From NCBI RefSeq assembly GCF_022637415.1, contig NZ_CP093340.1, positions 3,305,501 to 3,369,500 of the forward strand: 64,000 nt of DNA, written 5' to 3'. Positions 7,492 to 39,563 of this stretch are shown here, one piece after another (within the stretch, counting starts at the first letter, position 1; each line of letters opens with the position of its first letter). The stretch comes from Luteimonas sp. S4-F44 (lineage in GTDB: Bacteria; Pseudomonadota; Gammaproteobacteria; Xanthomonadales; Xanthomonadaceae). The notes under the pieces were generated by a model. That model was not told the origin of the DNA, ran no database searches, and was given only the letters and a program-made list of their open reading frames with translations. Made by a program: the position numbers and the translations under genes.

Positions 7492-7561
7492 GCAGTGGCT
7501 CTGATTTCTATAGGTGGGGGCGCGATGCGCGGGGATGCGGGTGGCCGGGGAGGCCGAGGCG

Positions 7562-7999: not shown

Positions 8000-8139
8000 C
8001 TGGACGTACTCCACTCCCGGACGCCGCCGGGGGCGGACACAAGCGCGTAGTCTAGCAAGCTCACTCTTGGTGAGCTGCACCCTCCCATTCAGCCTTGTCG
8101 AGGCCGCCTCACCAAACTATCCCCACGTGAGAATCCGCC

Positions 8140-8554: not shown

Positions 8555-8591
8555 TCGAGCTTCCGCACCTCGCGGTCATACCGATAGATCG

Positions 8592-8622
8592 ACCCCGCCG
8601 GTGAACACCGGCGGGGTTTTTT
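8592..8622 (+). terminator. Intrinsic terminator between gfcA-like gene and wza
   Basis: Perfect 12-bp arms ACCCCGCCGGTG and CACCGGCGGGGT with an AA loop run straight into six T. It lies 37 bases after the gfcA-like stop and about 50 bases before wza, so it should make the first gene far more abundant than the export genes unless readthrough is controlled. Confidence 0.88.
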
Positions 8623-8672
8623 ATGGACGGCACCTCCTTATGCCGCCCACTGTAGTCAGGAGAGTTTCGTCC

Positions 8673-10453: not shown

Positions 10454-11253
10454 AGCGGATACCGCTATGTCTGGCCCTGCTGACGGCAAGCGTCGCACAG
10501 GCCGAATCCGGGACGTTACAGGTCCGCGTCGACGGCGCCGTGCAACGGCCGGCCGACTACCAGGTTCCGACCGGGACTCGTTTGGCTGACGTCCTGCTGG
10601 CAGCGATGCCGACCGATGCGGCCTACACCACCGGCGCCGCGTTGCTGCGCCCATCTGCGCTCGAAGCACAGACCCGGCTCAAGGCGGGCGTGCTGCACGA
10701 CCTGCAAGCCGTGCAAGCGGGTGCCAATGTGCCGTCGTCCACAATCGCCACCGCCGCCCGACTGGAAACCGAGTTGGCCGCGCTTCCGGTCACCGGGCGC
10801 GTCAACAACGAACTCGACGCGCGCGTCGTCGAGGTGCGGCCCGAGGCCAACCTCGTCCTGCGGCCTGGCGACCGGATCACCTATCCAACGCGTCCCGCGG
10901 ACGTACGCGTCACCGGCGCGGTGGTTGCCACATGCACCCTGCCGCATGTGCCGCTGCGCGATGCCGTCGACTATCTACGCGATTGCCCGGTTGCAGGCGC
11001 TGACCGCGACCTGCTGTTCGCGGTGCAGCCCGACGGCACGGTGCAGATGCTCGGCATCGCCGGCTGGAACCGCAGCCCCAGGCAGGCGCTCGCCCCGGGC
11101 GCGACGCTCTATGTCCCGCTGCCCGAGCGCGACCTGCACCGCGCCGGGGCGCCAGACCTCAACCGCGAACTCGCGGCGTTTCTGGCCACTCAACCGCTTC
11201 CTTCCTTGCCCGCCCACGCGCCGGACACTTCGAATACGGATCCCGCACCATGA
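10450..11253 (+). CDS. gfcC: Capsule biosynthesis GfcC-like periplasmic protein
   Basis: The 267-residue product starts with a cleavable signal (MKRIPLCLALLTASVAQA), followed by a beta-grasp-like region (LQVRVDGAVQRPADYQVPTGTRLADVL) and a helical hairpin. A second similar module comes near the C-terminus (RPGDRITYPTRPADVRVTGAV), and the end is ELAAFLATQPLPS. This fits GfcC, a soluble periplasmic protein of group 4 capsule export with two beta-grasp domains. The ATG at 10450 overlaps the gfcB stop and the gene's own end overlaps gfcD by four bases. Confidence 0.82.
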   Translation: MKRIPLCLALLTASVAQAESGTLQVRVDGAVQRPADYQVPTGTRLADVLLAAMPTDAAYTTGAALLRPSALEAQTRLKAGVLHDLQAVQAGANVPSSTIATAARLETELAALPVTGRVNNELDARVVEVRPEANLVLRPGDRITYPTRPADVRVTGAVVATCTLPHVPLRDAVDYLRDCPVAGADRDLLFAVQPDGTVQMLGIAGWNRSPRQALAPGATLYVPLPERDLHRAGAPDLNRELAAFLATQPLPSLPAHAPDTSNTDPAP

Positions 11254-13436
11254 TCGCCCGCCATCGCCGCCGCCCCGTCCACCTGGCACCGGGGCTGCTG
11301 GCCCTGGCGATCGCCGGCAGCCTTCATGCGCAGGAGTCGGCGCATAGCCTGATCACTCAGAGCGACTGGGGCGGTGCCGGGCTGCTGCAGACCCCGACCG
11401 CGCGCATGGAAGCCGAGGGCCAGCTGAGCCTGACCGGCAGCTACACCTCGCCATATGCGCGTTACAACCTGTCGATGCAGCCGTTCCCTTGGTTCGAGGG
11501 CACGTTCCGCTACATGAACATCAACAACCGTCGCTACGGCCGACCAAGCCTGAGCGGCGACCAACACTTCAAGGACAAGTCGATCGATATCAAGGTCCGG
11601 CTTTGGGAGGAAAGTCGTTATTGGCCTGAAATCGCCTTCGGCATGCGTGATATTGGTGGTACCGGCTTGTTCTCGAGCGAGTATCTCGTTGCGAACAAGC
11701 GCTTCGGCAGCATCGATGCCAGCCTGGGCTTCGCGACCGGCTACATCGGCAATCGTGGCGATATCGCAAATCCGCTCCGCCTGATCAACGATCGCTTCGA
11801 GACGCGTCCTATCCCTCGACCTGACATCACCCAGGCCGGCGAGGCCGGACGCGACGTGTTCCGCGGACCGATCGGCGTGTTCGGCGGTATCACCTGGCAG
11901 ACGCCACTCGATCAACTGCTGCTCAAGGTCGAGCTGGACGGCAATGACTACGAGCGCGAGCCCCAAGGCAACAACCAGCGACAGAGCTCACCGATCAACG
12001 TCGGCCTGGTCTACCGCCCCAGCCCGAACCTGCAGCTGACGGCAGGCCTGGAGCGCGGCAACACGGCTGTGATCGGCCTGACGCTGACCACCAACCTCGC
12101 CACGGCGCGCAGCAATGCGCCGATCCTGGATCGCCCGGCAGTGCCCTTACGCCGCCACGCCGATCCGGGGGCGGGCGTCCCCGCGTCCGCCTTCCCGTCG
12201 GCATCCGACCTGGATGACGTGACCGGCGCGCGCCCCGACTGGGAACGCATCGCTGCCGACCTCAACCAGGAAGCCGGTATCCACGTTTCGCGCATCACCC
12301 GCCGCGAGCACGAGGTCATCGTCCACGGGAGCCACAACCGCTACTTCTACCCGGCCCAAGGCATCGGCCGCGGCGCCCGCGTGCTTGACAATGCGCTCGG
12401 CGACGACGTCACGTGGTTCACCTTTGCGCACGAGCGCGCCGGCACGCCGATCGCCGAGACCAGCGTGGAGCGGCAGGCGTTCGCCGACTACGTCGACCGG
12501 CGGATCGATCTGCCCGCATTCGCCCGCAAGGTAGAGCTCGCACCACCCGCGCAGCAGCACCGCGATGAGGTCTACGAGGCCCCGTTCCGCCGCCTGCGCG
12601 GCAGCATCGCGCCCGGGTACAAGCAGATCCTGGGCGGCCCCGACGGCTTCATCCTGTACCAGCTCTCGGCGGACTTCAGCGGCAGCTACTGGTTCTCACG
12701 CAATACGTGGTTGTCGGGCCTAGTCAGCGTGGACATCGCCAACAACTTTGACAAGTTCCGCTACGACGCGCCGACACGCCTGCCGCGCGTGCGCACCTGG
12801 CAGCGTCAGTACATGACGACATCCGACGTGACCGTGCCCAACCTGCAGCTGACGACCGTGCACCAACTCGGGCGCGACTGGTACGGCATGGCCTACGCCG
12901 GCTACCTGGAGTCGATGTACGGCGGCGTCGGCGGCGAAGTGCTGTATCGCCCGTTCGGCGAGCAATGGGCGATAGGCGCGGACGTCAACCAAGTGCGGCA
13001 GCGCGACTTCGACCAGCACGCAGGCTTCCGCGACTACGAGATCACCACCGGTCACATCACCGGCTACTACACGTTCGGGCGTACACGTCGGCTACAGGCC
13101 AATGTCAGCGTCGGCAAGTACCTGGCCGGCGATATCGGCACGACGGTCAACCTGACCCGTCGCTTCAATAACGGCGTGACCATGGGCGCGTACGCCACGA
13201 AGACCAACATCTCCTCGCGCACTTTTGGCGAGGGCAGCTTCGACAAGGGCATCTACTTTTCGATCCCGATGGACTTCGTGTTGCCTCGTCCCAGCCGCGC
13301 ACGCGCCGAGATCATGTGGCAGCCCCTGTTCCGCGACGGCGGCGCCAAGCTGTTCAGGACCTACGGCCTGTACCCGATGACGGGTGAGCGCAGCGGCGAG
13401 CTGTTCTTCGACAACCTGGAATGGATCGACCGCTGA
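11250..13436 (+). CDS. gfcD: YjbH/GfcD family outer-membrane beta-barrel protein
   Basis: This large (728 aa) exported protein starts with a signal peptide ending near AGSLHAQ and opens into SDWGGAGLLQTPTARM, the recognisable N-terminal motif of YjbH-type capsule/EPS proteins. Alternating beta-strand sequence runs to the C-terminus (ELFFDNLEWIDR). In E. coli GfcD is needed for group 4 capsule; it is predicted to be a barrel, possibly a lipid or polymer gate next to Wza. It is the last gene of the export operon and is followed by a 370-base non-coding gap. Confidence 0.88.
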   Translation: MIARHRRRPVHLAPGLLALAIAGSLHAQESAHSLITQSDWGGAGLLQTPTARMEAEGQLSLTGSYTSPYARYNLSMQPFPWFEGTFRYMNINNRRYGRPSLSGDQHFKDKSIDIKVRLWEESRYWPEIAFGMRDIGGTGLFSSEYLVANKRFGSIDASLGFATGYIGNRGDIANPLRLINDRFETRPIPRPDITQAGEAGRDVFRGPIGVFGGITWQTPLDQLLLKVELDGNDYEREPQGNNQRQSSPINVGLVYRPSPNLQLTAGLERGNTAVIGLTLTTNLATARSNAPILDRPAVPLRRHADPGAGVPASAFPSASDLDDVTGARPDWERIAADLNQEAGIHVSRITRREHEVIVHGSHNRYFYPAQGIGRGARVLDNALGDDVTWFTFAHERAGTPIAETSVERQAFADYVDRRIDLPAFARKVELAPPAQQHRDEVYEAPFRRLRGSIAPGYKQILGGPDGFILYQLSADFSGSYWFSRNTWLSGLVSVDIANNFDKFRYDAPTRLPRVRTWQRQYMTTSDVTVPNLQLTTVHQLGRDWYGMAYAGYLESMYGGVGGEVLYRPFGEQWAIGADVNQVRQRDFDQHAGFRDYEITTGHITGYYTFGRTRRLQANVSVGKYLAGDIGTTVNLTRRFNNGVTMGAYATKTNISSRTFGEGSFDKGIYFSIPMDFVLPRPSRARAEIMWQPLFRDGGAKLFRTYGLYPMTGERSGELFFDNLEWIDR

Positions 13437-13640: not shown

Positions 13641-13805
13641 CAGGTGGTGAGCTGGCGTGAAATTGGTATGCGTATCCACCTCCCAAAGGCACCACCGTGG
13701 CCATTCAGCTGCGGATGGGATGTTGAACACCGCACACAGGGTGAAGCCGGGGGTGCCCCCAGGTAGGGGCCCGGTCCGGCTCTGTGCTCGATGAAGGAGT
13801 CGGGC

Positions 13806-15239
<1,434 letters not shown>

Positions 15240-15383: not shown

Positions 15384-16550
15384 ATGAAAATCGCCATCGC
15401 CGGCACCGGCTACGTCGGTCTGTCCAACGCCCTCCTCCTCGCCCAGCACCACACCGTGGTCGCCCTGGATATCGACGCGGCCAAGGTCGACATGCTCAAC
15501 CGCCGCGAATCGCCGCTGGACGATGTCGAGATCCGCGAATACCTCGCCAAGCCGGAACTGGATTTCACCGCGACGACCGATCCCCGCGTGGCCTACACTG
15601 ACGCTCAATACGTCGTCATCGCGACCCCGACCGACTACGACACGACATCGAACTACTTCAACACGCGTTCGGTCGAAAGCGTCATCGCGCAGGTGCGGGA
15701 GATCAACCCTGACGCGGTGATGGTGGTCAAATCCACTGTACCGGTGGGCTTCACCGCCAAGGCCCGTGCACAGTTCGGCACTGACAAAGTGCTGTTCTCG
15801 CCGGAATTCCTGCGCGAAGGCCGGGCGCTGTACGACAACCTGCACCCCAGCCGGATCATCGTGGGCGAGCGCTCCGAACGAGCTGAGATCTTTGCCCGTC
15901 TGCTGCAGGAAGGCGCAATCAAGCAAGACGTGCCGGTGCTATTCACCGAAGCCACCGAGGCCGAGGCGATCAAGCTGTTCGCCAACACCTATCTCGCGAT
16001 GCGCGTGGCGTACTTCAATGAGCTTGATACCTACGCCTGCACGCATGGCCTGGATACCCGGCAGATCATCGAAGGTGTAAGCCTCGACTCGCGCATCGGC
16101 AGCCACTACAACAACCCGTCGTTCGGGTACGGCGGCTATTGCCTGCCCAAGGACACCAAGCAACTGCTCGCCAATTACAGCGACGTGCCGCAGAACATGA
16201 TCCACGCCATCGTGGAAGCGAATCGGACACGCAAGGACTTCATCGCGGACGACGTGATCCGGCGAAACCCGAAGGTGGTCGGCATCTATCGGCTCGTCAT
16301 GAAGACCGGCTCCGACAACTTCCGCGCCTCGGCGATCCAGGGCGTCATGAAGCGCATCAAGGCCAAGGGCATCGAAGTCGTCGTGCACGAGCCTGTACTG
16401 GACGCGCCGGAGTTCTACCATTCACGCGTGGTCAACGACCTCGTCGCCTTCAAGGCGAAGGCCGACGTCATCATCGCAAACCGGTTGACTCGGGACCTCG
16501 AGGACGTCAGGGCGAAGGTCTACACCCGCGACCTGTTCGGCTTCGATTAA
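15384..16550 (+). CDS. ugd: UDP-glucose 6-dehydrogenase
   Basis: This enzyme oxidises UDP-glucose to UDP-glucuronate with two NAD+. The Rossmann motif [15 protein letters not shown] is at the very N-terminus, the substrate motif [21 protein letters not shown] follows, and the catalytic Cys lies in [15 protein letters not shown] near residue 258. The 388-residue length equals the short E. coli-type Ugd. It provides the uronic acid donor for the epimerase directly downstream and probably for the PssD/PssE-like transferase. Confidence 0.96.
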
Positions 16551-16574: not shown

Positions 16575-17558
16575 ATGAATATTCTAATTACCGGCGCAGC
16601 CGGATTCGTGGGATTTCACTCGTCGCAACGACTGCTCGATAATGGGCACAGCATCGTCGGAATCGACAACCTCAATGATTATTACGATGTGAGATTGAAG
16701 GAGGCGCGCCTCTCGCAGCTTTCTGCTCGCGAAGGGTTTTCGTTCAACCGCCTGGATCTTGCAAATCGTGAAGGCATGGCAAGCCTATTTGCGGAGAACG
16801 AATTTGACGTGGTGCTCCACCTCGGGGCTCAGGCAGGTGTTCGCTATTCTATCGACAATCCGTTTGCGTATATCGACAGCAACCTCACTGGCACATTGAC
16901 CGTGCTCGAGGGCTGCCGCCATCACCGCATCAAGCATCTCATCTACGCGTCCTCCTCCTCAGTGTATGGCGCCAACACCAAGCAGCCTTTCTCTATCGAA
17001 GACAGGGTAGATGCGCCGGTTTCGCTCTACGCAGCCACAAAAAAAGCTGACGAGTTGATGTGCCAAACATATGCGCATCTCTATCGATTCCCGATCACGG
17101 GCTTGCGCTTCTTTACGGTCTACGGCCCCTGGGGCCGGCCCGACATGGCGTACTTCAAGTTCGCAAATGCCATTACCGCCGGAAAGTCGATCGATGTATA
17201 TAATTACGGCGACATGAAGCGAGACTTCACCTATATCGACGATATTGTGGACGGAATCCAGACCCTCGTAGAGGGCGCCCCACTGGCGGCTTCAGATGAG
17301 ACCCCACACCGGATCTACAACTTGGGCAATAACAACCCCGAGCAGTTGCTGGAGATGATCTCCCTGCTTGAGGACGCGCTTGGCCGCCAGGCGAAGAAGA
17401 ACATGCTAGATATGCAGCCAGGCGACGTGTATGCGACGTATGCTGACATCGATCGTAGCGCACAGGATTTCGGCTTCTCGCCCAAGACCGACCTTGCGAC
17501 CGGCTTGCAGCGTTTCGCTGCATGGTATCGCGAATTCTATCCCGAACGCGCACGATGA
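16575..17558 (+). CDS. UDP-glucuronate 4-epimerase (NAD-dependent epimerase)
   Basis: This extended SDR enzyme has the NAD motif GAAGFVGFHSSQRLL and the catalytic triad in SSSSVYGA and YAATKKADE. The segment IDNLNDYYDVRLKEARL is diagnostic of UDP-glucuronate 4-epimerases, which make UDP-galacturonate. 327 residues is typical. It lies directly downstream of ugd, which makes its substrate. From this gene onward the base composition drops visibly relative to the export genes, for example in its first codons (AATATTCTAATTACC). Confidence 0.9.
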   Translation: MNILITGAAGFVGFHSSQRLLDNGHSIVGIDNLNDYYDVRLKEARLSQLSAREGFSFNRLDLANREGMASLFAENEFDVVLHLGAQAGVRYSIDNPFAYIDSNLTGTLTVLEGCRHHRIKHLIYASSSSVYGANTKQPFSIEDRVDAPVSLYAATKKADELMCQTYAHLYRFPITGLRFFTVYGPWGRPDMAYFKFANAITAGKSIDVYNYGDMKRDFTYIDDIVDGIQTLVEGAPLAASDETPHRIYNLGNNNPEQLLEMISLLEDALGRQAKKNMLDMQPGDVYATYADIDRSAQDFGFSPKTDLATGLQRFAAWYREFYPERAR

Positions 17559-17573: not shown

Positions 17574-18908
17574 ATGCAATCGGCGATCGGCATGAAATTA
17601 TCCCGGCTCCGCGAACGCCTCCTGGGTGGAGACGCTAGCGACGTTGTGCGTGGAATGCTGACGCTGGCTTTGGGATCGGGAATGGCCCGACTGATCGGCA
17701 TCGCAGCGATTCCTCTCCTTACCCGTATCTACAGCCCTTCTGACTATGGCGCACTGTCTGTCTACAGTGCCCTTGTCGCAGTAATCGCCCCAATGCTGAC
17801 GCTGCGTTATGTGCTCGCCGTTCCGCTGCCGCGCTCGGACGGCATGGCAGCCAATCTGATGATGTTGTCGGGGCTGCTGCTTATAGGTGTCACCGTCATA
17901 ATCTCACTGCTGGCCTGGTTGTTCGGCGACATCGTTCTTGGCTGGATGTCCATGCAGATTCTTGCCCCTTGGTGGTGGCTCGTCATTCTTGGGGCAGTCG
18001 GACTGGCGATGTATGAAGCCCTGAGCCTGTGGGCAACACGCCGGCGAGCGTACCGAGTGATCTCGCAGACCAAAGTTCTCCAGTCAGCACTGAGCGTCCT
18101 CGTGAAAGTCTGCCTAGGCCTGGCAGCAATCAAGCCCTTCGGATTGTTACTTGGACACCTAGTAGAGCAAAGCGGGGGTATCAGCTCGTTCTGGCTGCGT
18201 TTTCGGCACGATTTCCGCGCCAATGCACACCGCATTCGACGGAGCTCCATGCGGCTGTTGGCCCGCTACTATCGCGGCTTCCCGACGTTTCGCATGCCCT
18301 CACAGTTCCTGCTGGTGTTCTCCACGCAGGCGCCCATCATGTTTGCTGCAGCTTTGTTCGGTGCCAGCGCCACTGGTCAACTTGGCCTGGCCCTTATGGC
18401 GCTGGCAATACCCAGCAACCTGATCGGGCAATCAGTCGGGCAGGCATTCTACGGCGAGATCGCACGATTACCAAAGGGCTCCGAAGTCCGCATCAAGGCA
18501 CTCGCCTACTCGGTGCAGAAGAAACTTTTCCTCGTCGGCTTACCTCTGACTCTCGTACTGGTGCTATTGGGGGAGCCACTCTTCCATGTGGCGTTTGGAG
18601 CACGCTGGACCGATGCGGGGCGTTATGCGTCGATCCTAGCTCCGTTCATACTCCTGCAGCTGACTTCGGCACCGCTTGTGCAGATTCTAAATATCTACAA
18701 CGCACAAGGCGCATTTCTAATCATCAACGCGATCCGAGCAGCCGGTCTTCTTGCGATTTATCAAGGCTGCCTGATTTTCTCACTCCCTCAACGCCAATTC
18801 ATTTACTTGCTGAGCGGATTTCTTTTCGGTTTTTATCTCTTGATAACACTCTACATCCTCCACGTGGTCAACAAAGCCGCAGCCCGACACATGGAAGCAA
18901 AGAAATGA
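17574..18908 (+). CDS. wzx: Wzx-type lipid-linked oligosaccharide flippase
   Basis: This polytopic membrane protein of the MATE-like polysaccharide-transport family has 444 residues and about 12 hydrophobic helices. Its opening (LALGSGMARLIGIAAIPLLTRIYSPSDYGALSVY) is characteristic of O-antigen/EPS flippases. It would move the undecaprenyl-linked repeat unit across the inner membrane for polymerisation. ATG 17574 with AGGG five bases upstream is used; ATG 17592 is possible. The stop overlaps the next start (ATGA). Confidence 0.9.
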   Translation: MQSAIGMKLSRLRERLLGGDASDVVRGMLTLALGSGMARLIGIAAIPLLTRIYSPSDYGALSVYSALVAVIAPMLTLRYVLAVPLPRSDGMAANLMMLSGLLLIGVTVIISLLAWLFGDIVLGWMSMQILAPWWWLVILGAVGLAMYEALSLWATRRRAYRVISQTKVLQSALSVLVKVCLGLAAIKPFGLLLGHLVEQSGGISSFWLRFRHDFRANAHRIRRSSMRLLARYYRGFPTFRMPSQFLLVFSTQAPIMFAAALFGASATGQLGLALMALAIPSNLIGQSVGQAFYGEIARLPKGSEVRIKALAYSVQKKLFLVGLPLTLVLVLLGEPLFHVAFGARWTDAGRYASILAPFILLQLTSAPLVQILNIYNAQGAFLIINAIRAAGLLAIYQGCLIFSLPQRQFIYLLSGFLFGFYLLITLYILHVVNKAAARHMEAKK

Positions 18909-19417
18909 GGAACCTGTTACGGCTGTTCTACATGCTTGTTTTCGGAGGCGCCAAGCCACGCGTGCGATGGCATCTGCGCGTCATGATATATGCGCGAGAG
19001 AACGGCTACAGCACCCTAGGTCGATTTATCGAGACGCGATTGCAACGCAAGCACGGCCTCTTTATTTCGCGCAAAGCGACCTTCCCCGCATCAATGGACC
19101 TCAAGCATCCGACCGGCGTTGTGATTGGCGAGGGCGTGGTGATAGGTGAATCTGTCAAAATCTATCAGAATGTCACGCTCGGCGGAGCGCGCTCCGGCGA
19201 TTGGAAATCCAATAATTACCCTACTGTCGGAGCCGGTACCACGATTTTCGCTGGCGCCGTCGTGGTTGGTCGTGTCAACGTCGGTCGCAATTGCATCATC
19301 GGCGCAAATGCCGTCGTGACCCGAGACGTTCCCGACAACGCCACCGCTGTCGGAATTCCGGCCCGTATTGTCACAAATTCTCCCCCCGCCTCCTTGTCCG
19401 AGCAAATGCACCCATGA
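18905..19417 (+). CDS. Serine-acetyltransferase-like left-handed beta-helix transferase
   Basis: The 170-residue product has hexapeptide repeats (PTGVVIGEGVVIGESVKIYQNVTLGG, TTIFAGAVVVGRVNVGRNCIIGANAVVTRDVPDNATAVGIPARIV). It resembles CysE-type O-acetyltransferases but is much shorter than CysE at the N-terminus. In capsule loci such proteins usually acetylate a sugar hydroxyl, so I infer a decorating enzyme rather than cysteine synthesis. The start overlaps the flippase stop, and the stop overlaps the MurA-like start, so it is embedded in the operon. Confidence 0.85.
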   Translation: MRNLLRLFYMLVFGGAKPRVRWHLRVMIYARENGYSTLGRFIETRLQRKHGLFISRKATFPASMDLKHPTGVVIGEGVVIGESVKIYQNVTLGGARSGDWKSNNYPTVGAGTTIFAGAVVVGRVNVGRNCIIGANAVVTRDVPDNATAVGIPARIVTNSPPASLSEQMHP

Positions 19418-20673
19418 GCAACAGCGCTGTCCTGCATGTAAAAAAGTCCCGCCTCGAAGGCCGCGTTTCTCTCGCCGGCGCCAAGAATTCTGCGCTTCGG
19501 CTGCTAGCTGCCAGCATTCTCACCGACGGCGTGCTGGAGCTGCGGAACTACCCGGCTGGCCTTCTGGATACCCAGGTGCATGTAGACATGCTGCGTGCGC
19601 TCGGCAAGTCTGCAGAGATCGTCGGTAAAGACGTCATCCGTATCAGCGAGACGCAATCGCTGTTGAGCCAGCTGAGATGGGAGGGCCGTTCGATTCGCAA
19701 TACGCTTCTCATCTTGGGCGCGCTTACCGCGCGCTTGGGTGCCGGCAGCGTCCCGCTTCCCGGTGGCTGCAAGCTCGGAGAAAGAAAGTACGACCTGCAT
19801 GTGATGCTCCTGGAACGCCTCGGCGCCCGCGTTTGGGAGGATGATGACTATTTGTATGCAGAAGCTCCCAGCGGTTTGGTGGGCGCCGATATCCACCTTC
19901 CAATGCGCTCTACGGGTGCCACCGAGAATGCAATTCTTGCCGGCACCTTGGCCAAAGGCATCACACGGGTTTGGAATCCTCACATCCGCCCGGAAATCTT
20001 GGATCTCATTGCCCTTCTCAACTCGATGGGTGCACGCATTACTGTGTTCGGACAGGAGCACATTGAAATCCGTGGAGTGGACGCCCTGCACGGCGCTGAG
20101 CATCGGGTGATTGCCGACAACATGGAGGCTATTACCTGGCTTTCTGCCGCCGTCATCACTGGCGGAGACATTGAGATCGCCGACTTCCCGCATGCGGATC
20201 TGGAAGTGGTGCTGGCCCATTTGCGATCCGCCGGTGCGCGTCTTTACGTCGGTGACGACTCACTGATTGTGAGGGGCGGTACTTGCTACCCGATCGAGAT
20301 CAGCACTGGTCCACATCCTGGAATCAACTCCGACGTGCAACCGATCCTTGCGGCATGGGGAGCGATGGCCCGAGGCGAATCGCGTATCGTCGATCTTCGG
20401 TTCCCCGGCCGTTATGGATATGCCGAGGAGATGGCGAAAATGGGGGTTCGCCATGACGTGGACGGCGACATGCTGCGCATTCATGGTCAAGGCGGAGCGC
20501 TTCAGGGCGCGGAAGTGCGCGCATTGGATCTCAGAGCTGGCGCAGCATTGACACTTTGCGGCTTGGCGGCCGAGGGCGAGACCGTCGTGACGGATGCTTG
20601 GCAGATCTCGCGTGGCTATGTCGATTTTGCTGAGAAGCTTCAGGCAATGGGCGCAGACATAAGATGGGCTTGA
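19414..20673 (+). CDS. murA: UDP-GlcNAc enolpyruvyl transferase (MurA paralogue in capsule locus)
   Basis: MurA transfers enolpyruvate from PEP to the 3-OH of UDP-GlcNAc. The 419-residue length is normal, and the key residues are kept: Lys24-Asn25 (GAKNSA), Arg95, catalytic Cys119 in PLPGGCKLGER, the Asp in INSDVQP and the late Arg in ISRGYVDF. It is divergent elsewhere, for example MRSTGATENAILAG and DAWQISRG. It sits in an overlapping chain of capsule genes and is followed by a MurB homologue, away from any cell-wall cluster. I infer a dedicated paralogue making a lactyl-ether sugar nucleotide for the polymer. That it is the only MurA of the cell cannot be excluded from this window. Confidence 0.88.
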   Translation: MSNSAVLHVKKSRLEGRVSLAGAKNSALRLLAASILTDGVLELRNYPAGLLDTQVHVDMLRALGKSAEIVGKDVIRISETQSLLSQLRWEGRSIRNTLLILGALTARLGAGSVPLPGGCKLGERKYDLHVMLLERLGARVWEDDDYLYAEAPSGLVGADIHLPMRSTGATENAILAGTLAKGITRVWNPHIRPEILDLIALLNSMGARITVFGQEHIEIRGVDALHGAEHRVIADNMEAITWLSAAVITGGDIEIADFPHADLEVVLAHLRSAGARLYVGDDSLIVRGGTCYPIEISTGPHPGINSDVQPILAAWGAMARGESRIVDLRFPGRYGYAEEMAKMGVRHDVDGDMLRIHGQGGALQGAEVRALDLRAGAALTLCGLAAEGETVVTDAWQISRGYVDFAEKLQAMGADIRWA

Positions 20674-21611
20674 AGAAGGCCGCTGTCGAACTAGCCCGGC
20701 TATTTCCTGGAGCTGTGCGGTGCGATGTACCACTGAGCTCTATAAGTCGCTGGCGGATCGGCGGGAACGCCGACATTCTCGTGTCTCCTCGTAGCATCGA
20801 TGAGCTCTCCCATCTCCGTGGCTGGCTTTACAGCTGCGGATTGCCTTCGGTCGTCATTGGCGCCACAAGCAATCTGCTGTTCGCGGACGAGGGGCTGCGC
20901 GCCGTTGTGATCCAGATCGGTTGCGGCCTTTCTTCGGTGACTATAAGGGGCAGCCGAGTCAATGCGGAGGCCGGAACATGGGTACCGGGCCTCGCCCGAC
21001 GCGCAATGATGGCGGGGCTTACCGGGATCGAACATACGTGTGGTATTCCCGGCACACTTGGAGGACTGGTTTGCATGAATGGGGGGAGTCAGCGCAAGGG
21101 TATTGGTTCCCACGTAGTCTCCGTGGTTTCGGTAGATGTCCGCGGCGAGCGAGTGGAGCGCAACCAGCAAGCATGTGGCTTCGCGTATCGTACGTCGGCG
21201 TTCCAGTCGAGCGATGAGATCATTTCCAGCGTGGAACTGGAGCTCGAAGCTGGGGCGGACCACAGAGTTCAGCGGCGGGAGATGCTCGATATCATGCGAA
21301 GCCGCCGCTCGAAGTTTCCGCAGAAGCTGCCCAATTGCGGCTCGGTCTTCGTAAGCAACCCCGCCATGTATGCGCAGTACGGACCTCCAGGCAAGGTGAT
21401 CGAAGCACAAGGGCTGAAGGGACACACGGTCGGCGATGCATTTGTGTCGCATGAGCACGCGAACTTCATCATCAATGGCGGACAAGCGAGGGCCGCCGAC
21501 GTACTCGCGCTGATTGCACTTGTCAAAGACCAAGTTGCTCGAGCAACGGGCTATTCGATGGCGGTGGAAGCGCGTTATGTCACGCCCGTAGGCACCATCA
21601 AGGAGATCTGA
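20664..21611 (+). CDS. murB: UDP-N-acetylenolpyruvoylglucosamine reductase (MurB paralogue)
   Basis: This FAD- and NADPH-dependent enzyme reduces the enolpyruvyl ether to the lactyl ether, giving UDP-MurNAc. The FAD-binding region shows WRIGGNADILV, VVIGATSNLLFADEG and GIEHTCGIPGTLGGLVCMNGG. The catalytic Ser lies in PNCGSVFVSNP, where most homologues have Ala instead of Cys, and the C-terminal VEARYV keeps a Glu in the expected place. The YRTSAF segment matches the YR.S motif. The 315-residue length is typical of the shorter type. It overlaps the murA-like gene by 10 bases, so the pair is coupled. Confidence 0.9.
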   Translation: MGLKKAAVELARLFPGAVRCDVPLSSISRWRIGGNADILVSPRSIDELSHLRGWLYSCGLPSVVIGATSNLLFADEGLRAVVIQIGCGLSSVTIRGSRVNAEAGTWVPGLARRAMMAGLTGIEHTCGIPGTLGGLVCMNGGSQRKGIGSHVVSVVSVDVRGERVERNQQACGFAYRTSAFQSSDEIISSVELELEAGADHRVQRREMLDIMRSRRSKFPQKLPNCGSVFVSNPAMYAQYGPPGKVIEAQGLKGHTVGDAFVSHEHANFIINGGQARAADVLALIALVKDQVARATGYSMAVEARYVTPVGTIKEI

Positions 21612-22615
21612 TGGAAGGCCTTCCCCTCGTCTCGATCGTCTGCGCCTGGTACAACAGGGCTGACTTCCTGCACGACACGCTGCAAAGTCTGCTGACGCAG
21701 AGCTTTGATTCCTTCGAGATCGTTCTTGTCAACGATGGAAGCAAGGATCCTCGCGTCCGAGAGATCCTTGACACCTTCGACGATCCAAGGTTAATCGTCA
21801 TTCACCAGACCAACGCAGGCTTCGTAGCGGCAATTCGTCATGCCATCGACGCTTCGCGCGGGCGCTATATCGCCGTACAAGGCGCTGGTGATGTTTCTGA
21901 GCCTGAACGTATTTCCAAGCAGGTTCAAGCGATGGAAGCGGATACACGCCTGGGTGTTGTTGGGTGCCTCAGGCGGCATGAGGCGTACAATGTGGCCGGC
22001 GTCTCAACTGCTCTTGGAACCCATGGCAAGGCGGGGCCTGCGTCGATCGATGACTTCCTGAAGGGCGGCAACCCATTCAGCCACGGCGAGGTCATGATCC
22101 GTCGCGAGGCGTATGAACAGGTTGGCGGCTACCGCCCATTTTTCATGTTCGCCCAGGATCGCGATCTTTGGATCCGCATAGCAGCCGCGGGCTGGAAAAT
22201 GAGCAATCTTCCCGATGTTCTGTATGTAAGGCGGAATTTTGCGGGTGATGGGGTGTCGACCAATCGTTCCAAGCTCTATCTTCAGCAGGCCTTCTCCTCT
22301 TTCGCACGGCAATGCCACGATGACCGCCTTCGGGACGGCGCTGATGCGGTTGATATTTACGGTGCATCTGCGGGACTACTGCGCCGCCCACACCCGGCAC
22401 TCGCCGAGGCGTCCGCAAAAATTGCGCTCCAGTCTCTTTACCTAGGAGATATGGACGAAGCGCGCCTGTACGCTCGGCGGGCCTTGGAAGAGCGGTGCAA
22501 CGTGCGGACATTCGCCACCAGGTTGGCTGTCGAATCTGCAGCACATTTTCCACTCCTCCGCCGTTTTTATCTCAAGCTCCTCGGCCATCGCGCTGGCTGG
22601 GAAACGTTGAGCTGA
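21611..22615 (+). CDS. Glycosyltransferase family 2
   Basis: A GT-A fold inverting transferase (334 aa) begins with PLVSIVCAWYNRADFLHDTLQSLLTQ and VLVNDGSKD, the nucleotide-sugar binding Asp motif. The central FSHGEVMIRREAYEQVGGYR and AQDRDLWIRIA contain the acceptor and catalytic regions. It is probably one of the cytoplasmic enzymes that extend the lipid-linked repeat unit. The start overlaps the murB-like stop (ATGA). The specific sugar is not readable. Confidence 0.9.
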   Translation: MEGLPLVSIVCAWYNRADFLHDTLQSLLTQSFDSFEIVLVNDGSKDPRVREILDTFDDPRLIVIHQTNAGFVAAIRHAIDASRGRYIAVQGAGDVSEPERISKQVQAMEADTRLGVVGCLRRHEAYNVAGVSTALGTHGKAGPASIDDFLKGGNPFSHGEVMIRREAYEQVGGYRPFFMFAQDRDLWIRIAAAGWKMSNLPDVLYVRRNFAGDGVSTNRSKLYLQQAFSSFARQCHDDRLRDGADAVDIYGASAGLLRRPHPALAEASAKIALQSLYLGDMDEARLYARRALEERCNVRTFATRLAVESAAHFPLLRRFYLKLLGHRAGWETLS

Positions 22616-22642
22616 AGCAGCTTTCGCCGAGATTTGATCAGC

Positions 22643-23086
22643 ATGAAGATTTTAGCAGTCGCCTCCGCAGGCGGGCATTGGATTCAGTTGCTACGGCTCA
22701 GGCCAGCCTTCGATGGCGCCAAGCTGGTCTATTTGACCACGCAGCAGCCAACCCTAGATGCAGTTGGCGCTAGTCCCTGTCATACGGTTATCGACGCCAA
22801 CTTCAATCGCAAGTTCAAGCTGGGTCTGATGTCCTTTCAGGTACTTCTTGTGCTTCTGCGTGAACGGCCGGACATCGTGATCTCCACGGGCGCGGCTCCT
22901 GGGTTTGTCGCTGTGGTGCTGGGTAAGCTAATGGGCGCCCGCACCATCTGGGTGGATAGCATTGCGAATGCAGAAGAGCTTTCACTTGCCGGACGCAAGG
23001 TCGCTCGGTGGGCTGATCACTGGCTTACGCAATGGCCGGAATTGGCCAGAACCTCGGGGCCGATACATCTAGGAGCGGTGTTGTGA
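22643..23086 (+). CDS. pssD: Alg14/PssD-like glycosyltransferase subunit
   Basis: The 147-residue product has the Alg14-type N-terminus MKILAVASAGGHWIQLLRL and a conserved PDIVISTGAAPGFVAVVLGKLMGARTIWVDSIANAEELS region with a membrane-associating hydrophobic helix. This family forms the membrane anchor and acceptor-binding half of a split GT-B transferase. In Rhizobium, PssD/PssE adds glucuronate to glucose-PP-undecaprenol. Together with wcaJ and ugd here, that reaction is a reasonable prediction. The start ATG 22643 lies three codons after a TTG. The stop overlaps the next GTG. Confidence 0.86.
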   Translation: MKILAVASAGGHWIQLLRLRPAFDGAKLVYLTTQQPTLDAVGASPCHTVIDANFNRKFKLGLMSFQVLLVLLRERPDIVISTGAAPGFVAVVLGKLMGARTIWVDSIANAEELSLAGRKVARWADHWLTQWPELARTSGPIHLGAVL

Positions 23087-23580
23087 TCTTCCTGACGACG
23101 GGAACCCAGTTACCGTTCGACCGTTTGGTGCGCACGGCCGACGAATGGGCCTTGGAAAGAGGGATCGAGGGTTTCGCACAGATCGGCAACTCATCCCACG
23201 TACCTACTGCCCTCACATACGAGCGATTCATAACCCAGCATGAGTTCGAAGAGCGGATCAAGATGTGCACCTGTATAGTTTCACATGCCGGGATGGGAAC
23301 TATCATTTTGGCACTTACCTACGGAAAACCGGCGATTTTGATGCCTCGCCGGTTTTCTTTGGGCGAACATCGGAACGATCATCAGCTGGCTACTGCCCGC
23401 AAACTGGCCGATCGCCCATTCCTGCGCTTCATCCAAGAGGCCGATGAGCTTGACGCGGCCTATCGCGACCTGACTTCCGGAGTCAATCTTGGAGAGCGCA
23501 TATCCCCCTACGCGGACGAGCGCCTTATCCGAAACTTGCGCGGACTGATATTCGGCCAGACCACGGAGCATGCGACATGA
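23083..23580 (+). CDS. pssE: Alg13/PssE-like glycosyltransferase subunit
   Basis: This is the donor-binding half of the split GT-B enzyme (165 aa): IFLTTGTQLPFDRLVRTADEW at the N-terminus and CIVSHAGMGTIILALTYGKPAILMPRR, the classical Alg13/MurG-like donor motif. The start is GTG 23083, four bases into the previous gene's end and preceded by AGGAG at 23071-23075. It must pair with the upstream Alg14-like subunit to be active. The stop overlaps the polymerase start (ATGA). Confidence 0.87.
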   Translation: MIFLTTGTQLPFDRLVRTADEWALERGIEGFAQIGNSSHVPTALTYERFITQHEFEERIKMCTCIVSHAGMGTIILALTYGKPAILMPRRFSLGEHRNDHQLATARKLADRPFLRFIQEADELDAAYRDLTSGVNLGERISPYADERLIRNLRGLIFGQTTEHAT

Positions 23581-24758
23581 ATTATTCCGGATTGAATCCC
23601 GTGCTCACGTCCGCGCCGGCCGGCCACGCCGGCGTGCGGTTGACGCATGTCGCTGGAATGCTGGCGGTATTGATCGCAGCAACACTGCACAACTCACTCG
23701 GAATGTTGGCTGCGATTCTCTTTTCCGCAGCCAACGGCAATCTTCTACGGAGCCGCCTGAACATCGGATGGTTCTCCGGCGCGTTTTATCTGATTGCCGC
23801 TTACGTGCTTGTTCGGCTTCTATTTCCCTCCCTAGTACCGCTGGGCGTACAAGCGCAAGAAGTCCTGAGGTTCGCTGTATTCGCCATATTCGCTTATTCG
23901 CTGCGAAGCATGCGCATCCAGGAACTCGTAACCGTGCTCATGATGTTCCTGGGCTTCTTGCTCGCCCCTCTAGCGATAGACCTGGTCACTGGCGCAGTGC
24001 TGTCGGACAGTTACCGATACCGTTCGATCATGCCCCACGCCAACCACCTCGGCTACGTCTGCGCTACGATTCTTATCACCTTCTCCTATTTGCATTTCGG
24101 CAAGATCTATTCGCCGCGAGGCTTATCCCTGTTCATGGGCGCCGCTCTTGGCATGCTGCTCGCATCCAAGAGCTCCGGCGCTCTGTTCGTCTTCATCTCG
24201 GGCGTACTGACAATTTTCCTGAGCTTGCGTTTCAGCGCGGCGCGCCTTTTCTATGCGGCTATCGCGGTGACGCTGGCAGGAGTACTGATTCAGACTCCAG
24301 TCGGCCAGTACGCACTTGAGAAGATAACGGTTTCCGATCTGGATCTGATTGTCGAGAAAGCACGAAGTCACGAGTTCGGGAACCAAGGCTCATCCTTTGC
24401 TTGGCGCGCCTCCTATTGGATCGCAATGCTCGATGCCCAATTTGCCAGCGGCTGGCCGATCGTGCTTTTCGGGCAAGGCGGGGGAGCCACTGGCGGCGGT
24501 AACTACGTGTTCGATTTCATCTCCAAGGATCCTCATTCTGACTTTGTTCGCGTCTTTATTGAGTACGGTGCTCTGGGCAGCCTGCTGATTCTTCTTGCAC
24601 TTGCGCGGGCCTGCATGAAATCCGGTCCTGTGGTGATCGCATTCGTTCTACTGTTTGGCCCGATGCTAACCGGAAACAGCATTATCTCCCCTCCCGTTAT
24701 TTTCCCTATCCTGATTAACCTTTTCCTCATAAAGAGGCTGTCAGAGTTCCAGAAATGA
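23577..24758 (+). CDS. wzy: Wzy-type polysaccharide polymerase (O-antigen ligase/polymerase family)
   Basis: The 393-residue polytopic membrane protein has about ten helices and a larger loop (residues about 245-320) before the last helices. The motif RSIMPHANHLGYVCA resembles the H-x-N region of O-antigen polymerase/ligase proteins. It is the only candidate polymerase in the cluster, and it is expected to join repeat units at the periplasmic face with Wzc controlling length. Sequence of this family is poorly conserved, so the call rests on topology, the motif and context. Confidence 0.8.
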   Translation: MNYSGLNPVLTSAPAGHAGVRLTHVAGMLAVLIAATLHNSLGMLAAILFSAANGNLLRSRLNIGWFSGAFYLIAAYVLVRLLFPSLVPLGVQAQEVLRFAVFAIFAYSLRSMRIQELVTVLMMFLGFLLAPLAIDLVTGAVLSDSYRYRSIMPHANHLGYVCATILITFSYLHFGKIYSPRGLSLFMGAALGMLLASKSSGALFVFISGVLTIFLSLRFSAARLFYAAIAVTLAGVLIQTPVGQYALEKITVSDLDLIVEKARSHEFGNQGSSFAWRASYWIAMLDAQFASGWPIVLFGQGGGATGGGNYVFDFISKDPHSDFVRVFIEYGALGSLLILLALARACMKSGPVVIAFVLLFGPMLTGNSIISPPVIFPILINLFLIKRLSEFQK

Positions 24759-25618
24759 GCCGAAGAATTTTTCTCAGTACACCGTTGCGCAACGAGTTCG
24801 ATAACATTCCTGATCTTTACAGGGCTGTCTCATCCCAGGATGTAAGCATCTCCATATGGGTCATCGTCGAAAACGGATCAACCGATGGCTCACAGGAACT
24901 CCTCCAAACGCTCCCTAAGCCATCCAATGTGGAGCAATTGATCGTACTCAACGAAGATACCGAGTCCGGCGAGTACGCACTGGGTCAGAAGTACGCGCGG
25001 ATCGTGTCTCGGGGCTTTGATGAGATCAGAGCAAGAGTGGATCTTCAACCAGAAGACCTCATTGGAATACTTGATGCGGACAGTTTTCCATCCGATGGCT
25101 ACTATCGGATACTGACACTCGCTTTCGATCAAAACCCTCGGCTTGGCCTTGCGAGTGGCGTCAGCTGCGATACGGGAACAGAGAAGAAATCCATCCATGC
25201 AGCTGACTGGGTCCGGGGTAGCTGCCGTCTGTGGCGTGGGGCCTGCATGTTGCAATCGGGCTACATCGTCGGACCCTCGGCTGACACCCTTTCCTTGGCT
25301 CGCGCCGAGATCGATGGCTGGCAGGCGGACGTCGTAAAGGACGCGATGTTCAAAGCGCGTGAAGTAGGTACTCGGTCAAAGCAGCGCTACTACGGAAGCT
25401 CGGCATATTTTCGTGGAAACACGTTGACCTACGCATTGGTGCGCTTTGGAAAGTTTCTAGCTTACGGGCGTTTTTCTGACGCCCGTGACTATCTTGCCGG
25501 CTATTGCAGCGCACGCTCTGACGACGCGCCTCGTATCGACGACGAGCAGATCCGTGACTATTTCGAGCAATATCTTCCCCGGAAGATCAAGAAGCGCCTT
25601 GGTTTGACAGGCCGCTGA
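24755..25618 (+). CDS. Glycosyltransferase (GT2-like)
   Basis: The 287-residue product opens with IFLSTPLRNEFDNIPDLYRAVSSQDVSISIWVIVENGSTDGSQELL, with ENGSTDGS as the nucleotide-binding motif, and continues with EDLIGILDADSFPSDGYYRIL (DxD metal site). It lacks membrane helices. It overlaps the polymerase gene (ATGA). It presumably adds one sugar of the repeat unit. Its linkage and donor are not predictable here. Confidence 0.86.
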   Translation: MSRRIFLSTPLRNEFDNIPDLYRAVSSQDVSISIWVIVENGSTDGSQELLQTLPKPSNVEQLIVLNEDTESGEYALGQKYARIVSRGFDEIRARVDLQPEDLIGILDADSFPSDGYYRILTLAFDQNPRLGLASGVSCDTGTEKKSIHAADWVRGSCRLWRGACMLQSGYIVGPSADTLSLARAEIDGWQADVVKDAMFKAREVGTRSKQRYYGSSAYFRGNTLTYALVRFGKFLAYGRFSDARDYLAGYCSARSDDAPRIDDEQIRDYFEQYLPRKIKKRLGLTGR

Positions 25619-25640: not shown

Positions 25641-26792
25641 GTGAAGAAGAATTACTTCCCCCTCGTTGATCTCTCGCGGTTTTTTGCCGCAGTTCTCGTT
25701 CTCATCTATCACTTGGGATATTCGACCTGGCAGCCACGCAGCAACGGATATTTTATCCACGACGGGCTCTACACCATCCCACAGATGTCTTGGGCATGGT
25801 TTGGATACATAGGCGTTCAGATATTCTTCGTTATTTCAGGATTTGTAATAACGAATTCCGCGGCAAAATCTTCTATCTCCCAGTTCGTGATCGGACGCAT
25901 CACGCGCCTTTACCCCACACTTTGGATATGTGCAACCATAACGCTCGGAGTTTGCATATATGCAGAGCTCTATTCTGAAAGCCAACTGTTGCGCAGGTAC
26001 TTAGGTTCTCTGCTACTTCTCCCGAAGTCGCCTTGGATGGAAGGGGTATATTGGACGCTTGTACTGGAAGTTATTTTCTACGCACTAGTAGGCCTGATGA
26101 TACTGCGACGGTGCATCGATCGCATCGACCTGCTGGCGTTGGGTCTTGCTGTCTACAGTGGCTCGGCAATCATCGTGTCCTGGCTTTTCCACGGCACTGA
26201 TGTTGAGTGGTTGAACTCAGCTATAGCCCTCGCGCGCGGAAAGCGCCAGTTGCTTGCTTGGCACGGCGTTTTCTTTGCGATGGGAATCTACTTCTACCTT
26301 GCAGCCGTCGGCCGCTTACAACGCAGCGGTATCATCTTCGCGATTTTGACGCTGAGCTTGTGCTGCCTGCAGATCTATGTAGGAACTGCGCTACCCCGCG
26401 CCGAAGCGCTCGCGGAAATCAGTGAAGCAGAGATGACCATGCGGTCAGCGTGGGTGCCGATTGTCGCATTCCTCGGCTTCACCGCAATCATTCCGGTTTC
26501 AATCTACAAGGGCGCGTGGATTATTGAGCGTCTATCGACGAGAACCATCGCATGGCTGCGGGTGTTGGGACTTATGTCATACCCCATCTACCTTCTGCAC
26601 TTTACTTTGGGCCTAGTGCTCATGCGCGAGATGGTCTCTCTCGGAGGCAACCCTCTCGCGGCACTGTTGCTCGCGTGCGCTACTGTGCTGATCCTTTCAT
26701 GGTTCATCGTAAAGTTTGTTGAACCACCGATGCAGAGCTGGACCAAGAACCGCTTGCTCAAGGTGAATGCGCTGCTCAGCTCTCGGGATTGA
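25641..26792 (+). CDS. Acyltransferase-3 family membrane protein (OafA-like)
   Basis: A GTG start (25641) with AAAGG upstream gives (M)KKNYFPLVDLSRFFAAVLVLIYHLGY, the typical N-terminus of acyltransferase 3 with the His in the first helix region. About ten membrane helices follow, with FVISGFVITNSAAKSS and RITRLYPTLWICATITL. Such enzymes O-acetylate polysaccharides from the membrane. The codon use is the most AT-rich of the window (many ATA, TTA and AAT codons), pointing to recent acquisition. Confidence 0.9.
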   Translation: MKKNYFPLVDLSRFFAAVLVLIYHLGYSTWQPRSNGYFIHDGLYTIPQMSWAWFGYIGVQIFFVISGFVITNSAAKSSISQFVIGRITRLYPTLWICATITLGVCIYAELYSESQLLRRYLGSLLLLPKSPWMEGVYWTLVLEVIFYALVGLMILRRCIDRIDLLALGLAVYSGSAIIVSWLFHGTDVEWLNSAIALARGKRQLLAWHGVFFAMGIYFYLAAVGRLQRSGIIFAILTLSLCCLQIYVGTALPRAEALAEISEAEMTMRSAWVPIVAFLGFTAIIPVSIYKGAWIIERLSTRTIAWLRVLGLMSYPIYLLHFTLGLVLMREMVSLGGNPLAALLLACATVLILSWFIVKFVEPPMQSWTKNRLLKVNALLSSRD

Positions 26793-26933: not shown

Positions 26934-27953
26934 ATGAGAAGGCATCATTGGTCATTGACTTCATTGGCAGCAATTGCGCCGCAGGCACGCGCCCTGTTTT
27001 TTCTGGTAGCGCTTTTTTTATCCGGCGGCGCTACACAAGCGGCTGAGTGCTCCAGCTACATTCCACCGCCGGTTTCAGAACTCAAGACTGTCAGCTTTTA
27101 TGGCGATGCCCGGTCATCCATAGTCAGCAAGGCAAGGATGTCCCAGTACTCTTCTGACATCGCCCGTCTTAATGATTTCTCCTTCCACGTGAGCAAAAGC
27201 GCAAACGACTTCATGGAGGGCGATGAATGCGCTGGCCTGAACGCCCTGGCGCTTCTTCGCGAATGGTCAAAATCCAACGCACTGAACAAGCTCGACGGCT
27301 TTCAAGCAAATGTTGCAGCAATGTTCATGGGCATTCCGGCTGTGGTGGCCTACGCCAAAGTTTCCACGCTTTGCCACGAAAGCGACTGCGTGGTTATCCA
27401 GCAATGGCTACTGCGCCTGGCCAGAAGGTCGAGCATCTATTTCTCATCGCCAAACCGGCCACGCAACAACCTTTACTACTGGTCTTCCACTTTCTCCATT
27501 CTCGCGGGGAAGTACGCGCATGATCCCCGACTCTTCGAGTACGGAAAAGACGGTGTCATCCGTGGCTTTTCTTCGCTCGGGCGGTCCGGATTTTCGTTAG
27601 AGAATGAGCGCGGACAGCGCGCCCAAACATACAACAGGTTTGCGTTTACCGCTCTGTCGTGGGGCGCTGCCGCAGTGTCTAAAGAGTTCATGGTCGACCT
27701 CTATCGTCAGAACCCTGAAGTGAAGGCATTCTTGGATGGCCATCGATCTCAGTCTGAAATCTCCATTGATGTTCTTCACCCCTCGAAATCTCGCCAAGTA
27801 GAAGCATCCTCAACCTGGCGTCTTCCGTGGGATATTCTTCTTCTCTCCGAGCAGAGCTGCGCTACTATGAGCTCGAAAGAGCGCTACAGAATTCTGGGGC
27901 TCGACACTCCGAAGCTTCTGACGGTGCTTTGGGAACTGGAACCATGCACCTGA
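26934..27953 (+). CDS. Alginate-lyase-like (PL5) periplasmic polysaccharide lyase
   Basis: An exported protein of 339 residues; the hydrophobic signal (ALFFLVALFLSGGATQA) ends near residue 36, followed by Cys. The (alpha/alpha)-toroid sequence has RPRNNLYYWSSTF where AlgL has R-NNHSYWA, and SLENERGQRAQTYNRFAF where AlgL has EL.R..RAL.YHNYAL. So the catalytic Arg and Tyr appear kept, but the His of NNH is replaced by Leu/Tyr and a second His by Asn. In capsule loci PL5 enzymes clear polymer stuck in the periplasm. Either specificity has changed (glucuronan-type substrate) or activity is reduced. The assignment is by motif only. Confidence 0.7.
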   Translation: MRRHHWSLTSLAAIAPQARALFFLVALFLSGGATQAAECSSYIPPPVSELKTVSFYGDARSSIVSKARMSQYSSDIARLNDFSFHVSKSANDFMEGDECAGLNALALLREWSKSNALNKLDGFQANVAAMFMGIPAVVAYAKVSTLCHESDCVVIQQWLLRLARRSSIYFSSPNRPRNNLYYWSSTFSILAGKYAHDPRLFEYGKDGVIRGFSSLGRSGFSLENERGQRAQTYNRFAFTALSWGAAAVSKEFMVDLYRQNPEVKAFLDGHRSQSEISIDVLHPSKSRQVEASSTWRLPWDILLLSEQSCATMSSKERYRILGLDTPKLLTVLWELEPCT

Positions 27954-39303: not shown

Positions 39304-39348
39304 GGCGCGGCCTCTGGACTAAGCGGAGATTCTTAGGTGTACGGTATG

Positions 39349-39360
39349 ATGGTATACCAT
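39349..39360. promoter_or_regulatory. Operator candidate ATGGTATACCAT
   Basis: A perfect 12-bp palindrome 46 bases upstream of the DUF1185 start codon. FadR-subfamily GntR regulators often bind GGTATA/TATACC dyads, and the regulator is divergently encoded. Confidence 0.65.
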
Positions 39361-39485
39361 ACAGGTCGCTGAGCAACCCCCGAACGGCGCCTCGCCTCAG
39401 CACAGAGGAGCCACGCGCGGCAGCGACCCACCGCGGCTGCTACCTGGCATATGGCTGCGCGCGTGCAGCCATGGTCTTTGGAATG

Positions 39486-39495: not shown

Positions 39496-39563
39496 ACGGG
39501 CCTGGATGCGCGCTTCGAACCTCGGCGCCTCTTGCGACATCCCATCAAGCACCGGACATACGA

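Follow-up and report, generated by a model that had tools for sequence, protein, structure and literature searches.

A second MurA/MurB-like enzyme pair in a capsule locus of Luteimonas sp. S4-F44, predicted to make a lactyl-ether sugar

In a stretch of 64,000 nucleotides from the Luteimonas sp. S4-F44 genome (contig NZ_CP093340.1, positions 3,305,501 to 3,369,500; hereafter the window, whose numbering is used throughout) a murA-like gene is followed directly by a murB-like gene, here called murA2 and murB2. The canonical enzymes MurA and MurB are the UDP-N-acetylglucosamine (UDP-GlcNAc) enolpyruvyl transferase and its reductase. The murA2 gene, counted from its ATG to the end of its stop codon, encodes 419 amino acids and murB2 encodes 315 amino acids (Table 1). 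The acyltransferase gene upstream overlaps murA2 by 4 nt, murA2 and murB2 share 10 nt, and murB2 overlaps the following glycosyltransferase gene by 1 nt (at 21611). The description in the first-pass annotation of this DNA, a coupled pair inside a capsule operon with starts overlapping the neighbours, was thus confirmed with exact coordinates. The pair is embedded in a Wzx/Wzy capsule locus of the group-4 type. The guanine-cytosine (GC) content is 52–60% from approx. 15 to 27.5 kb of the window and 62–72% in the flanks. The host genome is a single contig of 3.685 Mb that is rated 100% complete.

Profile comparisons placed both proteins in the expected families, with scores well beyond chance. 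MurA2 matched PF00275 with 241.7 bits and passed the cut-off of the MurA subfamily NF006873/PRK09369 (384.6 bits, cut-off 297), while MurB2 scored over two equivalog cut-offs, TIGR00179 (172 vs 144.5 bits) and PRK13905 (262.1 vs 259 bits). The catalytic residues had earlier been described as intact, and this held for both enzymes: MurA2 retains Lys24, Asn25, Cys119, Arg124, Asp307, Arg374 and Arg400, and MurB2 has the catalytic Ser227 together with Arg176 and Glu302. In an alignment of 62 MurB2-type sequences Arg176 and Ser227 were present in every row and Glu302 in 61. The predicted structure of MurA2 is a confident MurA fold, with a predicted local distance difference test (pLDDT) value of 92 and a template modelling (TM) score of approx. 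0.9 to solved MurAs.

If no other murA and murB existed in the genome, the pair would be the essential one for peptidoglycan, as the first-pass annotation had pointed out. Further copies were found. The gene of a canonical MurA lies at C1:924707-925957; its product scored 577 bits and thus passed the curated cut-off. Another MurB is encoded at approx. C1:1957715-1958590. This MurA has the usual Cys and the RPVD motif, this MurB the GYRDS, GSFF and Glu motifs. A third MurA-family match at C1:1654222 reached 43 bits, which is in the range of AroA, a member of the same superfamily. The essential-pair reading of murA2/murB2 was therefore ruled out. MurA2 is 37% identical to the canonical MurA of its own genome. 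The best explanation is that the canonical genes serve peptidoglycan and that murA2/murB2 are paralogues acquired with the capsule locus.

To find relatives, 84,980 species genomes were scanned with six exact 8-residue patterns, which gave 84 confirmed stretches, a lower bound. The best 80 of these 84, at 57–78% identity, were used as the locus set. For the MurA residue alignment and tree 77 loci and the window were combined into 78 rows (L100, L102 and L103 were excluded as partial) and compared with 31 housekeeping MurAs, 30 of them from 36 searched genomes and one from Luteimonas itself. In a tree made by a quick method the MurA2 rows split from the housekeeping MurAs with full support (100 in the Shimodaira–Hasegawa-like approximate likelihood ratio test, SH-aLRT), so that the phylogenetic placement proposed earlier gave a separate clade of capsule-linked copies. 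Mean identity was 64% among the MurA2 rows, 48% among the housekeeping MurAs and 34% between the two groups. Measured along the tree, the row closest to the window came from the actinobacterium Microbacterium halimionae (fork support 93); in plain identity a metagenome-assembled genome (MAG) of Loktanella ranked first with 78%.

The clade is widely but sparsely distributed. Its rows span seven bacterial phyla, some of them represented by one row and many by MAGs, and an archaeon. Close to home MurA2 was found in 2 of 395 sampled genomes from its own family and in 1 of 232 from the class (expectation value 1e-110; the own genome is counted in both), and no close relative of MurB2 was present among 149 family genomes, the own included. 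A Thermomonas locus (L039) carries MurA2 at 38459-39700. Seven of 140 plasmid records had a match at 60–73% identity to MurA2, separated by a gap from 23 others that were listed at no more than 41%. There was no DNA match in the E. coli genomes searched and no relative in the viral contigs searched. The patchy spread together with the strong conservation is best read as horizontal transfer. Among the 36 genomes with MurA2 that were searched, 34 also hold a whole canonical MurA, one (G172) holds it in two contig pieces and Methanosarcina spelaei has none. Marinobacter segnicrescens has two MurA2 genes (L032 and L045), one in a cassette that includes MurB and the other with neither MurB nor a recognised capsule family nearby. 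Halopseudomonas xiamenensis (L026) is a cultured carrier of the cassette.

The surroundings of the pair recur as well. A MurB gene was present in 64 of the 80 loci, and in 30 of them it overlapped MurA2 or began no more than 100 nt after it; in many Bacteroidota loci the acyltransferase and Wzx lie between MurA2 and MurB. Within 6 kb of MurA2 the 80 loci held Wzx in at least 53 cases, an acyltransferase in at least 35, an epimerase in at least 31, a GT4-like glycosyltransferase in at least 30, a GT2 glycosyltransferase in at least 22 and a sugar dehydrogenase in at least 21. These counts are lower bounds, because greedy gene choice hides genes (e.g. 61 MurB genes against the 64 found otherwise). 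It also hid MurA2 in 8 loci of one gene-order comparison, and the Wzx and acyltransferase of the window, which were matched to their families separately. Where 6 kb of sequence flanked MurA2 on either side (47 loci), MurB was near in 39 and Wzx in 33. The gene after MurB belonged to the family of the window GT2 in 16 of 61 cases and to the GT4-like family in 19. On a plasmid of Qingshengfaniella (L168, 11437-15238) acyltransferase, MurA2, MurB2 and GT2 stand alone, flanked by catabolic genes. This four-gene module indicates that the four form a unit and that the GT2 is the likely user of the product.

The pair also occurs in methanogens. Of 59 genomes around M. spelaei, five, itself included, encode MurA2 at 64–65% identity. 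In all five McrA scored over its cut-off, and in four of them mcrA lies on the same contig of 4.5–4.9 Mb as MurA2. That the archaeal copy stems from contamination was ruled out by the four further methanogen genomes, in which the pair lies on these mcrA-bearing contigs. In tetranucleotide composition the M. spelaei locus correlated at 0.90 and 0.88 with three other stretches from its own genome, two more being masked and unusable; a Bacteroidota locus also gave 0.88, and this is weak evidence. The only MurA-family matches in the five genomes were MurA2 and one at 84–89 bits, in the AroA range, and the sole MurB_C match adjoins MurA2. M. acetivorans, used as a control, had no MurB_C match. MurG was over the cut-off in none of the five (best 47.8 bits, partial), but the MurG of the Luteimonas genome (219 bits) was also under the cut-off, so the comparison is informative only as a contrast in score and coverage. 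The gene order is that of a surface-polysaccharide locus: in four genomes (L183-L186) sugar dehydrogenase, epimerase, MurA2, MurB2, acyltransferase (in three of the four) and Wzx, with an unassigned frame of 110 amino acids in the acyltransferase slot between MurB2 and Wzx in L185, and in M. spelaei (L104/L170) the same order with no acyltransferase between MurB2 and Wzx. Methanosarcina is not known to make peptidoglycan, therefore the pair would have to serve something else there.

Two further MurA-like genes were seen in the M. spelaei neighbourhood (G671 C167:5836-7050 and G717 C18:7238-8476), at 35–37% identity to MurA2.

The remaining genes of the Luteimonas locus are listed in Table 1. 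The acyltransferase query sequence was used without its first Met in the profile and family comparisons. The genes of the group 4 capsule (gfc/etk) export system, Wza, Wzc, phosphatase, GfcB, GfcC and YjbH, are all present upstream in the window; the set shared with that system excludes the repeat-unit genes of the window, that is flippase, transferases and MurA2/MurB2. The alginate-lyase-like gene at the end of the capsule run may hint at a uronate-containing polymer or at a polymer-trimming enzyme.

Table 1. Genes of the capsule locus, in window positions.
Feature	Position	Strand	Evidence
Wzc-like chain-length kinase and low-molecular-weight phosphatase	5251..8080	-	Pfam domains
Wza-like exporter, GfcB/YjbF, GfcC, YjbH (group-4-type capsule export)	8397..13436	+	Pfam domains
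WcaJ-type undecaprenyl-phosphate glucose phosphotransferase (priming)	13791..15239	+	TIGR03023 over cut-off
Nucleotide-sugar dehydrogenase, UDP-glucose 6-dehydrogenase-like	15384..16550	+	TIGR03026 over cut-off
NAD-dependent sugar-nucleotide epimerase/dehydratase-like	16575..17558	+	No equivalog cut-off reached
Wzx-type flippase	17574..18908	+	PF13440; matches 28 members of flippase family C7 found near MurA2
Hexapeptide (EpsC/CysE-like) acyltransferase	18905..19417	+	4-nt overlaps with wzx and murA2; matches 38 members of the acyltransferase family beside MurA2 elsewhere
MurA2, predicted capsule-clade UDP-sugar enolpyruvyl (1-carboxyvinyl) transferase	19414..20673	+	Profile scores, residues, tree, predicted fold
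MurB2, predicted enolpyruvyl-sugar reductase	20664..21611	+	TIGR00179 and PRK13905 over cut-off, catalytic residues
GT2 glycosyltransferase, candidate user of the MurA2/MurB2 product	21611..22615	+	Pfam; matches 24 family members at related loci
Alg14-like and Alg13/GT28_C-like split glycosyltransferase, two overlapping genes	22634..23580	+	Pfam
Wzy-like polymerase, O-antigen ligase domain (Wzy_C-like)	23577..24758	+	PF04932 23.1 bits, under the Pfam cut-off of 31.7
Second GT2 glycosyltransferase	24755..25618	+	Pfam
Membrane acyltransferase (Acyl_transf_3)	25641..26792	+	Pfam
Alginate-lyase-like protein, last gene of the capsule run	26934..27953	+	PF05426 41.3 bits

The pocket residues set the clade apart. 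In what we take to be E. coli numbering, Val163 is replaced by Thr and Glu188 by Arg in all 78 MurA2 rows (Thr167 and Arg192 in the window protein), while the housekeeping rows have Val in 30 of 31 and Glu in 31 of 31. Where AAREPE is usual, the MurA2 rows have PHIRPE or PHVRPE. Position 121 is Lys in 68 of the 78 rows, mostly as RKYD for RPVD, and Pro (22 of 31) or Arg (9 of 31) in housekeeping MurAs; position 232 is Asn in 77 of 78 and Arg (22 of 31) or Met (9 of 31) in the housekeeping rows. In the solved MurAs of C. difficile and S. pneumoniae the compared positions are occupied by Val and Glu, and the motif is RPID. Docking work, in the available parts of two reports, assigns Val163 and Arg91 to the diphosphate pocket, Asp305 to the glucosamine pocket and Glu188 to the ligand contacts (PMC10500568, PMC11628175). 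From its sequence MurA2 looks like an enzyme with preserved chemistry and a retuned acceptor site, either for another sugar or for escape from feedback by UDP-N-acetylmuramic acid (UDP-MurNAc). Thus the pair shares fold, catalytic residues and superfamily- and subfamily-level membership with canonical MurA/MurB, and differs from them in its own clade, the low mean identity, the altered acceptor pocket, the capsule context and the missed equivalog cut-off considered below.

Our proposal, to which we give a probability of about 0.75, is that the pair supplies a surface polymer with a lactyl-ether sugar in nucleotide-activated form. The recurring surface-polysaccharide context and the methanogens with no other MurA or MurB found support this proposal, which the first-pass annotation had already offered for the capsule as one of its readings; its idea of a lactyl-ether sugar thus gained support, with the sugar itself still a prediction. 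Which reaction takes place, which sugar results and where the polymer carries it, we infer as follows. The pair would yield an activated 1-carboxyethyl sugar nucleotide, in all likelihood UDP-MurNAc or something close to it. The sugar would be added to the lipid-linked repeat unit by a glycosyltransferase encoded in the locus, with the GT2 at 21611 as the best candidate; Wzx would flip this unit and the Wzy-type protein polymerise it before export by the Wza/Wzc/YjbH machinery. Plain MurNAc has an even chance within this proposal.

Several observations weigh against it. MurA2 stayed under the cut-off of the curated MurA equivalog TIGR01072 (369.9 vs 392.7 bits), which five other clade members passed narrowly with 393.0–404.2 bits. 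The invariant pocket changes are a possible sign of another acceptor, and since the housekeeping pair already supplies UDP-MurNAc, plain MurNAc does not strictly require a second pair. No MurB was found in 16 of the 80 loci, several of them cut by contig ends, and seven of the 36 genomes, all bacterial, have a single MurB despite MurA2 (G154, G159, G167, G171, G173, G179 and G180); a dedicated reductase is thus not universal. The cassette MurBs (62 rows, in a tree with 18 of 19 housekeeping MurBs, L141 being dropped) fell into two groups of 29 and four stragglers, and a single origin was neither demonstrated nor rejected (p = 0.342 in the approximately unbiased test, p-AU). The housekeeping MurB may serve the single-MurB genomes; if it does, the product of MurA2 is more likely to resemble enolpyruvyl-UDP-GlcNAc.

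An acceptor other than UDP-GlcNAc, such as another N-acetylhexosamine (HexNAc) or a uronic acid, would lead to a lactyl ether different from MurNAc. The clade-wide changes at positions 163, 188, 121 and 232 speak for it, as do the dehydrogenase and epimerase genes near MurA2 (21 and 31 of the 80 loci), and the replacement of Glu188 by Arg would suit a carboxylate on the sugar. However, Asn25 and Asp307, presumably the GlcNAc contacts in MurA structures, are retained, and the seven single-MurB genomes share the pocket, which would demand that the product be accepted by the housekeeping MurB of these genomes. Next to the plasmid mini-module there are no sugar-nucleotide genes, and dehydrogenases and epimerases are frequent in capsule loci anyway. 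Within the proposal we consider another acceptor unlikely. A variant of the proposal keeps UDP-MurNAc as the product and assumes that MurA2 is insensitive to the feedback by which UDP-MurNAc traps canonical MurA in a dead-end complex, which would uncouple capsule flux from peptidoglycan. Canonical MurAs were crystallised as UDP-MurNAc/phosphoenolpyruvate (PEP)-adduct complexes, to judge from the structure titles (e.g. 3swd, 3su9, 3swg), and MurA2 differs in just this pocket with the catalytic residues kept; the same changes fit another acceptor equally well, and we regard feedback escape as tentative.

The suggestion of a phosphonate- or fosfomycin-tolerant backup was disfavoured. Duplicate MurAs do serve peptidoglycan in Firmicutes, but every one of the 78 MurA2 rows has the Cys that fosfomycin targets. 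Nine of the 31 housekeeping MurAs (rows L127-L135) have Asp instead; they make up all the housekeeping rows from genomes of Bacteroidota loci, in which the capsule copy has Cys. An exchange of Cys for Asp in MurA has been linked to fosfomycin resistance (PMC6801904, in the part available). An insensitive-type housekeeping enzyme beside a Cys-type capsule copy is the reverse of what a tolerant backup would need, and with the surface-polysaccharide context and the methanogens lacking any other detected MurA or MurB this makes a backup for peptidoglycan highly improbable. Nor is it at all probable that the enolpyruvyl group is left unreduced in some polymers as an enolpyruvyl ether. The loci without MurB and the single-MurB genomes would fit, but MurB is present in the window and in most loci with catalytic residues that are almost always intact, and a housekeeping MurB may fill in elsewhere. 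The patchy distribution and the low GC content could also mark decaying baggage of a transferred locus; the full-length overlapping genes, the kept catalytic residues and the confident MurA fold make this hardly credible.

Muramic acid has been reported from surface glycans. According to the available parts of PMC4515632 it occurs in the capsule of Vibrio vulnificus ATCC 27562 (in a reference title), in the O-chains of Yersinia ruckeri and Proteus penneri and, as the finding of that paper, in the lipooligosaccharide (LOS) of Psychrobacter arcticus. The expectation of a rare extracellular material was therefore half right, since muramic acid in the V. vulnificus capsule and in several lipopolysaccharides (LPS) was already in print. 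These four glycans contain the kind of product that we predict from genes; the available parts of the paper make no statement on the genes responsible. A serogroup-specific marker called murB is listed for K31 of V. parahaemolyticus (PMC8443796), which resembles murB2 in name; the accessible text mentions no murA and gives no sugar structure beside the murB entry. A MurA relative working outside peptidoglycan is known in NikO of nikkomycin synthesis, which is named together with MurA as an enolpyruvyl transferase in the review PMC6801904. NikO differs in its acceptor, which in the part of the review available is uridine monophosphate (UMP), and its match to MurA2 was far weaker than that of MurAs (137 vs up to 270 bits). 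In the open-access literature, which was covered in part and was not searched for archaea, we found no description of a dedicated, trans-domain capsule MurA/MurB cassette. Text matches to 'MurA' in two papers on E. albertii, one on Sphingomonas and one on B. fragilis turned out to be names of authors. Probably a known kind of chemistry takes a genetic form here that is dedicated and has travelled widely.

If so, the finding offers a genetic handle for the lactyl-ether sugars of capsules that are known from chemistry, and the presence of a MurA2-clade gene becomes a prediction that can be tested by nuclear magnetic resonance (NMR). An enzyme pair that counts as a marker of peptidoglycan and a target of antibiotics is also spread together with genes for surface polysaccharides, and automatic labels can mislead, for instance the term 'peptidoglycan biosynthetic process' on plasmid records. 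It is possible, though doubtful, that a mobile cassette of MurA2, MurB2, flippase, acyltransferase and glycosyltransferase moves between bacterial phyla, and even between domains, and puts a muramic-type lactyl sugar on cells that include peptidoglycan-less methanogens, with an altered acceptor site that would yield an undescribed lactyl sugar nucleotide. Since no other MurA or MurB was found in the five methanogen genomes, the pair predicts a muramic-type sugar in archaea that have no peptidoglycan.

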